Source: Armatimonadota bacterium (GTDB taxonomy: Bacteria > Armatimonadota > Fervidibacteria > Fervidibacterales > Thermosaccharophagaceae). From it: a stretch of DNA of 58,076 nt. This document shows positions 3,234 through 56,819 of this stretch, piece by piece. Numbering within the stretch: position 1 is the first letter of the stretch; each line of letters opens with the position of its first letter. The position numbers and the translations under genes are program-made. The stretch spans positions 1 through 58,076 of the forward strand of contig JANXAS010000021.1 of the NCBI GenBank assembly GCA_025062195.1, in the 5' to 3' direction. The notes below the pieces were generated by a model, which saw only the letters and a program-made list of their open reading frames with translations, was not told the origin of the DNA and did no database searches.

Positions 3234-3620
3234 TGTGGGGTGGTAAACGGTGCAAAGCCCGTTTTGAGCTGCAAAGCAACATGGAGCAAAATTTAAAATG
3301 CGACAGACAGCACCCCACTTCACTTCGTGCCTTACTGCGAACCATTTTGAGGATGGTTTACAATAGGGATTGCGCAATTGGTATTGTTTTATATGGGTGG
3401 ACGATAGTCTGCCCGGTAAACACTGCCAAAAGCGAACTATGCTGGCGGCTTAACAGCCGCCACTGCATTCAGCTCCGTAACTTCTATACAAAACAAACTT
3501 TCCCGCCAAGCTCATTGTGGCTCAATTTGTTGGTTTGAACTTTGCTTGCTCCTAATATATCTTGGTGAAGATGATGATATGCCGAGAGCTATTTGAACGG
3601 TTAACAGCGAGGTGCATTCA
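3234..3620. other. hisF-hisI spacer with a short perfect inverted repeat
   Basis: No supported gene lies here; the 101-codon frame has no family features. A perfect 7-bp inverted repeat (GGCGGCT / AGCCGCC, 4-base loop) sits at 3444-3461. It lacks a T-run, so it is not a clean terminator and may be a repeat remnant. Confidence 0.5.
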
Positions 3621-39470: not shown

Positions 39471-39665
39471 AAAGAGCAAAAGACGAGCACAGTGTGCTGT
39501 TGACTTTAGACGACGGTAGTTCACTGTGACATGAAACTGTGGCATGAATTAGTAGCATCAGTTTTAACAGGCTTTCGCTCCAGACTTCACAAACGATTCT
39601 CCATCTTTACACGGAAGCCGAATGCCGCTATTATAGCAATTGAACCAAATAACAAGGGGGGAGCA

Positions 39666-39671
39666 ATGATG
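39666..39671 (+). promoter_or_regulatory. Strong start signal out of frame with the gene body
   Basis: AAGGGGGGAGCA directly precedes two tandem ATG codons (39666 and 39669). This is by far the best translation start near the metalloprotease-like gene, but its frame ends at a TAG about 55 bases on. The body is in another frame and would join only if two bases were lost from (or one gained in) the dinucleotide tract at 39681-39701. Confidence 0.6.
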
Positions 39672-41782
39672 TGGCGAATGACACACACACTCTCTCTCTC
39701 TGCGGTAGTCTGGTTGTGTTGTTAGGAATGTCTATAAAAGGTGATGCACAAGTCTATGACCCACCTATCGGTGGAAGTTGCTATGTCTACCATCCACCCA
39801 CCCATACTTACCTTGAATACTCCCGTCGTGCTCAACTGATTTATGAACTCCAACCAACATCCGCTATTGATTACGACATTACGCCCTGGGGAATTGAAGA
39901 GAACACTGTAGTCATTGTTGGGTGGGTGGCAATTGATGGGAATGGAAATGATGCGGGTGGGGAATTCGGTTATACGCCTGATGGTTATTCTTTTCACCCT
40001 GTCAACGACCCGGGACAGGTGAACTGCTACCGACCAAGACCGGATTTTGTAGGGATTTTGAAGATAGCACCAATTTTGGATGACATTCCGATAGGCATGT
40101 ATTCAGGTATGCCTACTTATGACGATGATGAAACAGTTGGTGACCCATGGAAGATGACTGTTTGGGAGTTTTGGATTACTAACCACTGTCCTGAAGGTTG
40201 GCGCCCAAAAATTTGGGACACACTCTATTTCACTGCTCAAATTCGTCCAACCGTTGACCACCGTTGCAACTCTTTGGCAGGGATTATTATGTTTCACCTT
40301 TATGCGTCTAAAGAGCCAAGCTTTTGCTTAAACGCTTGTTGTGGAGGCTACGGTGAAGTATGCAACATTCAGGTTATGTGCCCGCTATTTCCTTACTGTG
40401 CCTACGATGAAGGACTGCTTTGGGGAACCCCTGAATGCCCATGGCATCAACAGCTGCTTCTAAATGGTAACCTATGGAAGGCAATGACCATCTGGGACAG
40501 CGATTTGAAGTTTGTGCCCTCACAAGAAGGGTTTGATGTTAATGCCCCAGAATGCACAATGGCTGCAACAGAAGTTGCAGTTACCGATGCAACAGTGCAA
40601 GTTGTTTGTTTGGACTATGGTGCTTTTGGGTTTCTGACGGCAACATGTATACATCCAATTTTAGGTGGGATTGAAGCAAGGTTGCCATCTGGAGTTTATG
40701 ATGATGTTTTTTCAGAACTGTTCCTACTGGCAGACTATGATGTCGGAATCCCTTATGATTATAACCTTGATGGCATTGCTGATTGCTGGCAAGATAAACA
40801 TGGATGGCAATATACAAGCAATCCTCTATGCGATGCCGATGATACACCTCAAAGTAACGGAACTAATGGAGATGGCTTATCTGCCTATGAAGAGTATCGG
40901 GGCTTAGTAGCGCGAAGGAATTGGAAAGACTTTGACCCTAAAGTCAAAGACATGTTCGTGATGAAATTTGGAGCAGTCTCAAGAGACCCAGAAAATGGCG
41001 ATTGGAATTTCGTCATTCCAAACGAAGCCATAACTTCAAACGATGGCTTCCCTGGACAAGGTGTTCCCGGAGAAAACAATAAAGGCTTTTGGCTTTTGAA
41101 TGCAAATGAAGGCTTGCTTCGTTGGGTGCGACACCCTGAAAAGGGTCATATACCAGGCAAAATCGTCAACTTCCTTCATGGCTATGCCCATTTAAGAAGT
41201 GTCTATGCTGCAGTCGTTGTCCCAAGCAGAGATGACGAACCAAAACTTGGTTGGGCACTTGGTCCCATTTGGAATGGCTACAGATGGGTGCGATGGAATA
41301 ACAACGATTGGGAATTAGTTTGTGACATTCCTCTTGCACCTGTTATTGAAGTTGATGTGGATGAGGCAGAAAGATGGGGACAAATTTGGGGATTTGATAA
41401 ATTGGCTTCTTTGGCGATGGTTATAGGTCATGAGTTGGGGCACACTGTCCTTTGGGATGTTGACCATGACGAAAATGTCAACAATGACCAATCCTTTGGT
41501 GGTGACAGGGGGCATCACATTATCGGGAGGGATGGAAGAGTTGGTCAGCACACAATAGATTGTCTTATGTGGCCATATTTCCCTCCAAGGATTTGCCCAA
41601 GTGGCTATGCACTTTGTCTGATATTTTGTCCTCAAAGAGAGGAGCATTGGATTTGGCAAAATGGAGAACCTATTGCCCCAAGAAATGCGGATGATTGGAT
41701 TGTGTTCGCACCCAATGAATTTTGTGACTCAAATCCAGATTGCCGAAAGTTATGGCATTTAAATCCCCAAAAGAGGTGGTGA
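39671..41782 (+). CDS. Secreted HELGH zinc-metalloprotease-like protein, out of frame at its start
   Basis: The body encodes a cysteine-rich protein (about 700 residues) with IGHELGHTVLWDVDHD near residue 590: HExxH plus a downstream Asp/His-rich loop, as in metzincin-like proteases (HExxHxxxxxD/H). Earlier it has a calcium-type loop DYNLDGIADCWQDKHG and GTNGDGLSAYEEY (about residues 360-400). Family is not recognised beyond that. The only start in this frame is GTG 39671, giving an N-terminus without positive charge and no ribosome site. The good start two codons before is in another frame. The AC/TC tract in between explains this (see finding). Base use is A/T-richer than neighbours. It is followed after 3 bases by a companion gene. 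Confidence 0.8.
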   Translation: MANDTHTLSLCGSLVVLLGMSIKGDAQVYDPPIGGSCYVYHPPTHTYLEYSRRAQLIYELQPTSAIDYDITPWGIEENTVVIVGWVAIDGNGNDAGGEFGYTPDGYSFHPVNDPGQVNCYRPRPDFVGILKIAPILDDIPIGMYSGMPTYDDDETVGDPWKMTVWEFWITNHCPEGWRPKIWDTLYFTAQIRPTVDHRCNSLAGIIMFHLYASKEPSFCLNACCGGYGEVCNIQVMCPLFPYCAYDEGLLWGTPECPWHQQLLLNGNLWKAMTIWDSDLKFVPSQEGFDVNAPECTMAATEVAVTDATVQVVCLDYGAFGFLTATCIHPILGGIEARLPSGVYDDVFSELFLLADYDVGIPYDYNLDGIADCWQDKHGWQYTSNPLCDADDTPQSNGTNGDGLSAYEEYRGLVARRNWKDFDPKVKDMFVMKFGAVSRDPENGDWNFVIPNEAITSNDGFPGQGVPGENNKGFWLLNANEGLLRWVRHPEKGHIPGKIVNFLHGYAHLRSVYAAVVVPSRDDEPKLGWALGPIWNGYRWVRWNNNDWELVCDIPLAPVIEVDVDEAERWGQIWGFDKLASLAMVIGHELGHTVLWDVDHDENVNNDQSFGGDRGHHIIGRDGRVGQHTIDCLMWPYFPPRICPSGYALCLIFCPQREEHWIWQNGEPIAPRNADDWIVFAPNEFCDSNPDCRKLWHLNPQKRW
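39681..39701 (+). repeat. Dinucleotide tract (AC)5 (TC)5 inside the signal-peptide region
   Basis: Ten AC/AC bases at 39681-39690 are followed by TC repeats to 39700 and a T at 39701, i.e. six CT units counted from 39690. Loss of one 2-base unit brings ATG 39666/39669 into frame with the downstream metalloprotease-like body. Confidence 0.9.
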
Positions 41783-41785
41783 GAA

Positions 41786-42646
41786 ATGATCAAGGGCGAA
41801 CAGAAAGGGTTACTTTTAGTCATCTTTGTTGGAGCGATGTTCATAAGCACATCCACTTCATCGCCACCAGGTGGGAGAACATTGAAGTTACCGAAAGCGA
41901 ATGCTGAAGCGGAACGGAAGTTGAAAGAGGCATATGCTTGCTATGTTCAAGGTTGGTATGAAAGGGCAATTGACATTGCTAACGAAGTGTATAGCAAGTA
42001 TGGTGATGTTCAGGCGAAATGGTTTCCAAGTTGGGTGAAGAGAGCAGTGAAAGGGAAAATTCCAAACCCATATGACAAAAGTGAAGTGCTTGGTCGGACT
42101 CTTGAAGGAGGATTTCTCTTTACGATGGCGATTGAAAGTGTTTTCCCATCCTACTTGATTGCTCGCTGTTACGCAGCCATAGGAGACACTGAGGGTTTTG
42201 CACGATGGGCAAAGAACCTTCGTAAATTAGGTTTTGATCAAGATGCTGTTTCAAGAGCCTACCTTCTACCACATCCAAGTGGCTATTTGAGAGAAACAGT
42301 GATAACAAAGAACACATGGCGACCGTTGGCTTTGAGTTTTCGTGAAGAGGACTACTTCATCTTAGTCCCACTTGATGATGCTTGCAAAGTTTTGGGGCTT
42401 CCTTTCCGATACAAAGTCAACCCAAAAACAGGCAAGAGAACAGGGGCGCAAATTGGTGAAAAAGGGCTTATGTCTTTGATGGGTAGACCTTTTGCCAGAA
42501 ACATCAAAGGTGAGGTTGATGACATGGCTTATGCTCCTTTTGAAGAGAATGGAGTTGCTTGGGTTCCATTTTACTGGCTTGCAAAGCAGGCGGGGATAAG
42601 GGGATGGGAAGTAAGGGACGGAAAGATTTATGTTGCTCCAAAGTAG
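41786..42646 (+). CDS. Secreted protein with copper-amine-oxidase-N-like repeats
   Basis: A 286-residue protein with an N-terminal signal segment (LLLVIFVGAMFISTSTSS). A helical first half follows with LKEAYACYVQGWYERAIDIANEVYSKYG (a TPR-like pair) and a second half DYFILVPLDDACKVLGLPFRYKVN and GVAWVPFYWLAKQAGIRGWEVRDGKIYVAPK. That half resembles the copper-amine-oxidase N-terminal 'stalk' domain common in secreted proteins. It probably interacts with the cell wall or partner proteins; function unknown. ATG 41786 has GAGGTGGTGAG upstream, and the gap to the preceding metalloprotease-like gene is 3 bases, so the two are cotranscribed and possibly act together. Confidence 0.78.
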   Translation: MIKGEQKGLLLVIFVGAMFISTSTSSPPGGRTLKLPKANAEAERKLKEAYACYVQGWYERAIDIANEVYSKYGDVQAKWFPSWVKRAVKGKIPNPYDKSEVLGRTLEGGFLFTMAIESVFPSYLIARCYAAIGDTEGFARWAKNLRKLGFDQDAVSRAYLLPHPSGYLRETVITKNTWRPLALSFREEDYFILVPLDDACKVLGLPFRYKVNPKTGKRTGAQIGEKGLMSLMGRPFARNIKGEVDDMAYAPFEENGVAWVPFYWLAKQAGIRGWEVRDGKIYVAPK

Positions 42647-56303: not shown

Positions 56304-56819
56304 ATGACAAGCAGGCAACAAGTGATTGACGAACTTGCCCGCAGGCTTGGGATGAGTGAGGAAGCTGTTGAGAATTTTCTTCGCACGCTCGTTACGATTG
56401 TTGCCCCTCTTGTTCCTGAGGTGCCACCTTACTTTGAGCGCTATTTTGAAGCTCGAATTGGCTCACTTCAACGAGAGATAGAACATTTGAGGGAAGAGAT
56501 AGACAGGCGATTTGAGGGGGTTGATGGAAGGATTGAAGAGTTGAGGGGTGAGATGAATAGGCGGTTTGGAATGGTTGATACAAGGATTGAAGAGTTAAGG
56601 AGTGAGATGGATAAGCGATTTGGAATGGTTGATACAAGGATTGAAGAGTTAAGGGGTGAAATGGACAAGCGATTTGGGGAACTGAGAAGCGATTTGAGGG
56701 GATGGTTTACACAATTTGAGAGACGATTCATCCTTCTTGAACGATGGTTGTTTGTATTGTTGATACCGCTTTTAATTGCGCTGCTTGCTGCTGTCTTTAA
56801 AATACTCGTTAGCTCGTAA
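56304..56819 (+). CDS. Coiled-coil protein with a C-terminal membrane anchor
   Basis: A 171-residue protein. An N-terminal helical region of about 50 residues (VIDELARRLGMSEEAVENFLRTL) is followed by a long charged coiled coil with 18-residue repeats (RFGMVDTRIEELRSEMDK), then one TM helix (LFVLLIPLLIALLAAVFKILV) near the end. It resembles DUF1640-like or prophage-tail-adjacent coiled-coil anchors, but no function is known. ATG 56304 is taken because GGGGGTC lies just upstream; ATG 56286 begins with weak context. It sits within the tRNA cluster, a position often occupied by acquired genes. Confidence 0.75.
   Translation: MTSRQQVIDELARRLGMSEEAVENFLRTLVTIVAPLVPEVPPYFERYFEARIGSLQREIEHLREEIDRRFEGVDGRIEELRGEMNRRFGMVDTRIEELRSEMDKRFGMVDTRIEELRGEMDKRFGELRSDLRGWFTQFERRFILLERWLFVLLIPLLIALLAAVFKILVSS
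56508..56669 (+). repeat. 54-bp (18-residue) tandem repeats in the coiled-coil gene
   Basis: Three consecutive 54-bp units start at 56508, 56562 and 56616, with a partial fourth at 56670. Units 2 and 3 are nearly identical. Each encodes R-F-G-M-V-D-T-R-I-E-E-L-R-x-E-M-D-K. Confidence 0.9.

Follow-up and report, generated by a model that had tools for sequence, protein, structure and literature searches.

The locus described here lies on the forward strand of the window, by which we mean the whole 58-kb stretch of DNA that was analysed (58,076 nt). Two adjacent ATG codons at 39666 and 39669, read directly from the sequence, are preceded by AACAAGGGGGGAGCA, and a purine run, AAGGGGGGAG (39653-39663), forms a Shine-Dalgarno-like ribosome site. 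The ATG at 39669 is followed by TGGCGA-ATG, (AC)5 (39681-39690), (TC)5 (39691-39700), a single T and GCGGTAGTC, and the frame opened by the ATG pair crosses both repeats and ends at a TAG (39723-39725). This short reading frame (39666-39725), MMWRMTHTLSLSAVVWLCC, has 19 codons and carries a signal-peptide n-region. The body of the gene is read at an offset of +2 relative to the ATG. It is open from a GTG at 39671-39673, an alternative and possibly weak start that would begin MANDTHTLSLCGSLVVLLG, to 41782, encodes 703 aa, and holds a hydrophobic core and the putative end of the signal peptide (CGSLVVLLGMSIKGDAQ) at 39702-39754. The initial annotation had described this anatomy (ribosome site, ATG-ATG, mixed repeat, TAG and a body in another frame), and it was recovered base for base, with the early stop, put there at about 18 codons, now counted at 19. 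It had also proposed that deleting one dinucleotide unit would join start and body; with one CT unit fewer in silico, the ATG start does fuse to the body as MMWRMTHTLSLCGSLVVLLGMSIKGDAQV.

Upstream of these starts, a sigma-70-like promoter site (TTTACA-17-TATTAT, 39606-39634, forward strand) is a consensus match only; one such site was found against a shuffle mean of 0.9, i.e., no more than chance, and its position fits the ATG start. The proposed switch, (AC)5 followed by (TC)5 and T (39681-39701), differs in length among homologous starts and comprises the sole dinucleotide tracts of at least 5 units within the window. Homopolymer runs in the window stay below 8 nt for A, C and T and below 7 nt for G. 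The tract was not listed by Tandem Repeats Finder at a minimum score of 30, and Rfam gave no match. Elsewhere in the window, positions 56519-56677 hold 2.9 tandem copies of a 54-bp unit (90% matches); because 54 is divisible by three, the copy number could change there without loss of frame.

The 703-aa protein had no Pfam match at E values up to 10. Metzincins are recognised by the motif HExxHxxGxxH (or close to it) plus a Met-turn, and the window body ends in HELGHTVLWDVDH and DCLMW, with its third His at +12 and not at +10. A relative on contig C130 of genome G043 carries HELGHAVNLTH and DCIMY and matches Pfam M10 at E 0.00027, below the cut-off of that profile. When the family profile was compared with the PDB, the best matches, although weak, were metzincins. 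With a mean pLDDT of 37.8, the structure predicted for the window protein was too poor for fold comparison. The body (39671-41782) resembles metzincin-type zinc peptidases (Pfam M10/M12 clan) in its HExxH, later His and CxM turn; its relatives match their profiles below threshold, but the window protein itself differs in lacking a Pfam match and in the spacing of its third His. Judging from these sequence features, we regard it as a putative secreted metzincin-like peptidase. A companion gene of 286 aa follows at 41786-42646 on the same strand, with a weak match (E 0.21) to the copper amine oxidase N-terminal domain and, judging by the translated ORFs, with relatives both beside the paralog described below and in the same-order genome G001.

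The layout recurs in the genome from which the window derives. A paralog on contig C83 (C83:15722), 55-56% identical, begins GGGGGTGTAAACA-ATG-AGA-AAG-(CT)5 and is out of frame in the opposite way: to come into frame it would have to gain one unit, and the window copy would have to lose one. The genome holds four distinct (CT)5-or-longer tracts (7 overlapping matches), three of which sit between a Shine-Dalgarno-like ATG and an out-of-frame signal-peptide core, namely in the window gene, the C83 paralog and an unrelated third gene on contig C33; the fourth lies within an open ORF resembling VanW. The third gene (C33:69701) reads ATG-AAG-GTG-AAA-GTC-TC-(CT)7, with a start frame of MKVKVSSLSLS and a stop, and its body frame has a strong signal-peptide core and no start codon ahead, in an ORF that runs off the contig end; a search for its homologs convincingly found only the gene itself. 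The chance that at least two of the three non-window tracts would fall at such starts is about P = 2e-5, a rough figure that generously assumes 400 secreted genes with 45 nt each (0.26% of both strands). Scanning the same genome for a Shine-Dalgarno-like site, ATG and (CT)4 gave four places, of which two belong to the genes already described and the others lie on C99 and C148; the C99 place falls within an ORF that reads as histidyl-tRNA-synthetase-like. Changing the tract by one unit gave each of the five loci tested a signal peptide with an n-region charge of +1 to +3.

Relatives were found more widely in the phylum. A protein search of 61 genomes matched nine, the source genome included, and a profile search of 291 Armatimonadota genomes matched 25; a first scan of the named genomes with the single window protein gave no match. 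In the same order, G001 ((CT)4) and G002 ((CT)5) have Shine-Dalgarno-ATG starts that are out of frame with the body. Five leaders of G032 are out of frame, two of them (C8, C10) with poly-C tracts, as are the G043 copies on C130 ((CT)5) and C118 (a CG-rich tract). The G043 contigs C96 and C5 carry paralogs of a different gene that are three CT units apart and both in the ON register, and in G043 C41 start and body agree in frame at the junction, with a shift, judged by eye, further on. Overall, seven genomes (G000, G001, G002, G017, G030, G032 and G043) share the position of the frame break, with differing tracts. Two aspects of these data count against a contingency locus: the tracts of the same order are short (4-7 units), and three of the out-of-frame G032 leaders have just 4-6 consecutive C. 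Just downstream of the G001 gene pair, remnants of a second family copy were seen (G001:C5:91726-92171, L029).

One alternative is that the window holds an ordinary gene started at the GTG at 39671, with the tract incidental and the ATG either a decoy or the head of a brief leader ORF that overlaps the gene. That GTG is 5 nt downstream of the ATG, in reach of the same ribosome site, and G001 has a similar one. However, initiation there gives the n-region a net charge of -1, comparable starts ahead of the signal-peptide core are absent from the C83 paralog, C33, G002 and G043 C130, and the concentration of three of the four long CT tracts at such starts would be left unexplained. Indeed, no body-frame ATG, GTG or TTG precedes the core in C33 or G043 C130, so a frame change is needed in these two genes. 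We consider the GTG reading unlikely. It nonetheless bears on the claim of the initial annotation that the present sequence is in the off state: the ATG frame is out of register as claimed, but the GTG could give weak expression, and the state may be better described as low. Termination-reinitiation was also considered, given the stop/start overlaps in G001 (TAATG) and G002 (GTGA), and was rejected: a restart at those points would lose the charged n-region, and at the corresponding junction G043 C130 offers no start codon.

The G043 leader recurs in its genus, with ten copies in G017. In each G017 copy, a Shine-Dalgarno-like site precedes ATG-CTA-AGG-AAG-TGG (or a slight variant of it), which leads through the tract into GGAGGGAGTATTGTAGCCTC and on to a signal-peptide core. 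In an alignment of 12 rows (the ten G017 leaders plus G030 C6 and G043 C118), the ten G017 sequences are nearly the same, and differences in length past the ATG fall mainly in the tract. The G017 body is at offset 0 in C20 and C24, at offset 1 in C23, C28 and C42, and at offset 2 in C7, C13, C30, C35 and C37. C20 is fully ON, being open for 417 codons from the ATG, and C24 is in frame at the tract and shifted soon after. The G017 leader, used as a search pattern, had no match in viral contigs. All ten leader copies (C7, C13, C20, C23, C24, C28, C30, C35, C37 and C42) lie near contig ends; repeated G017 genes may have broken the assembly, and the true copy number of the leader may differ. In G043:C130, G017:C7 and G030:C6 (L033, L237 and L247), the switch-type leader stands directly after GGATCACCTCCTTTC, an unusual neighbour that we take to be the 3' end of a 16S rRNA gene. 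The tract lies in a strong hairpin in G017 C13 (z -4.4) and G043 C130 (z -4.0), and the window tract has none (z +2.2); a hairpin was accordingly discarded as a shared element.

Selection on the bodies was estimated from eight G017 copies, seven of them out of frame. Omega was 0.07-0.33 in 28 of 28 pairs (pooled pS 0.177, pN 0.036), where bodies that are never translated should drift towards 1. The bodies of the window gene, the C83 paralog and G001 are also intact over about 700 codons. These results bear on the possibility that the frame break reflects an error in the repeat count or a gene that is no longer functional. Counting errors can arise in short tracts, the genomes are drafts split over many contigs, and several copies carry further shifts; however, the same break occurs in seven genomes with different tracts, long bodies have stayed open, and those of G017 are constrained. 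Assembly error or pseudogenization is, in our estimation, a most improbable account of the window locus. It is possible that individual copies (C24, C41, C13 and C35) are decaying or miscalled, which counts against the contingency reading. In G017 C13 and C35, other small length changes bring a stop at codon 113 of the aligned body; about 350 nt past the tract (L238, L239), a C run in C13 and a G run in C35 have changed in length, and these second changes may represent a second switch site, decay or miscalls.

Across 26 start loci, which are not independent of one another, the body was at offset 0, 1 and 2 in 5, 7 and 14 cases (chi-square P 0.08 against equal thirds). The five loci at offset 0 comprise three that are cleanly ON (G017 C20, G043 C96 and C5) and two that are shifted later (C24 and C41). 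Most of the loci, 21 of 26, are out of frame, which counts against the contingency reading; the excess over two thirds is not significant (P 0.09), and a P of 0.007 for this excess on 23 loci is superseded by the larger set. Not included in the count are G043 C115, whose leader is cut by the contig end; another leader at a contig end, on G043 C118; Armatimonadota homologs that are distant and start conventionally (e.g., G023, G249 and G283); and G282 C57, where start and body frames differ at a junction that, by eye, has no tract. Among 42 homologous loci in a scan of the named genomes, 26 start conventionally and in frame, with a hydrophobic stretch, as judged by eye; three (L179, L180 and L182) had already been counted as out of frame and the others are cut or unclear. 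With so many homologs having ordinary starts, the layout is special to part of the phylum and not a trait of the whole family. In a Planctomycetota homolog (L210), a run of 14 G at about position 3450 lies some 50 nt upstream of an in-frame ATG and is possibly a promoter-type switch.

The predominance of out-of-frame loci could also be expected if the out-of-register arrangement were itself the working state, with programmed recoding at the repeat (slippage by the ribosome or RNA polymerase, or ribosome bypass) joining the two frames at a low constant rate. The CT, CG and C tracts would all allow re-pairing after a slip, and the strong hairpins of G017 C13 and G043 C130 would suit such a process. 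However, the loci include both offset 1 and offset 2 as well as three that are cleanly in frame, the window tract lacks a hairpin, and by eye there is no shared slippery sequence. Programmed frameshifting has a fixed direction and a conserved slippery site, and what we find instead are offsets of 0, 1 and 2 and tracts that differ; a fixed -1 or +1 frameshift was rejected as the main reading on the presence of both offsets and of in-frame copies. We judge recoding in this general form to be very unlikely. It is quite unlikely, too, that Armatimonadota have a dedicated slippage or hairpin-bypass process at a varying repeat, linking a charged start frame to the bodies of secreted proteins and giving a low constant dose, with the tract set in a hairpin in the genus of G017 and G043.

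We therefore favour, with a probability of roughly 0.78, the reading of the tract at 39681-39701 as a simple-sequence contingency locus, i.e., phase variation by slipped-strand mispairing. The initial annotation had recognised such a layout, and it gains support from relatives with the same start and other tract lengths, some in frame, and from selection on out-of-frame bodies, switching itself being what we infer. The length of a tract in the 5' coding region sets the frame; among paralogs, as opposed to alleles, tract length differs and flanks are alike (the G017 leaders, G043 C96 and C5, and the window copy versus C83); ON copies (G017 C20, G043 C96 and C5) and OFF copies exist in the family and the genus, with the window gene itself seen only out of frame; and out-of-frame bodies are kept intact, as seen in the G017 selection and the open frames of the window gene and its paralog. 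Under the contingency reading, the ATG pair at 39666/39669 would be the main start, and slippage of DNA polymerase would add or remove two-base units in the tract, moving the positively charged n-region in or out of frame with the hydrophobic core and metallopeptidase body. The assembled sequence would represent the off (or low) phase. Since (CT)n reads Leu-Ser in all frames, the tract would be tolerated at the border between the n-region and the hydrophobic core, free to vary with the signal peptide unspoilt. The genome of the window would then hold at least three switches of this type, the window locus among them, and they would be part of a wider set in Armatimonadota, expanded to ten leaders in G017. 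Length change would presumably be frequent and reversible within one population, the protein secreted, and switching adaptive.

On/off switching by repeats is familiar above all from pathogens and commensals that live with hosts. That a phylum known here through metagenome-assembled genomes shares this design, with repeats between the n-region and the core of a signal peptide, suggests that it was invented independently and that phase variation may be useful outside hosts, where, speculatively, phage, predators, cheaters or costly public goods could favour it. Ten switchable leaders in G017 would allow many combinations of secreted proteins in one lineage. Automatic annotation would assign poor GTG starts or pseudogenes at such loci, and switches of this kind may be overlooked. 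We found no report of phase variation in Armatimonadetes/Armatimonadota in a literature search whose reach excluded most subscription papers and all preprints; for contingency loci and hot springs, titles and the opening lines of abstracts pointed to no such case, and the available part of a review on phase variation published in 2025 (PMC11868660) mentions none.

According to the accessible portions of the respective reports, oipA of Helicobacter pylori carries a CT tract of 5-9 units in its signal-peptide coding region that is subject to slipped-strand mispairing (PMC6327388), and sabA is off with six CT units and on with 7 or 10 among clones and re-isolates (PMC2715451). As far as these portions go, the window locus is alike in having a CT tract of similar size in the 5' coding region whose unit number sets the frame. 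It differs from these outer membrane adhesin genes in phylum and protein family (a metallopeptidase), in its mixed AC plus TC tract, in the C or CG-rich tracts of its relatives, in the repeated leader with a hairpin in one genus, and in that no host is known for the Armatimonadota case. A phase-variable protease gene, NalP of Neisseria meningitidis, switches via a homopolymeric tract in the coding sequence, as described in the part of the source available (PMC3723659); NalP is an autotransporter, whereas the window protein is metzincin-like and has no autotransporter match in Pfam. Of the known cases, oipA and sabA are the closest. The mechanism is known, and the phylum, the protein family and the leader expansion appear to be new.
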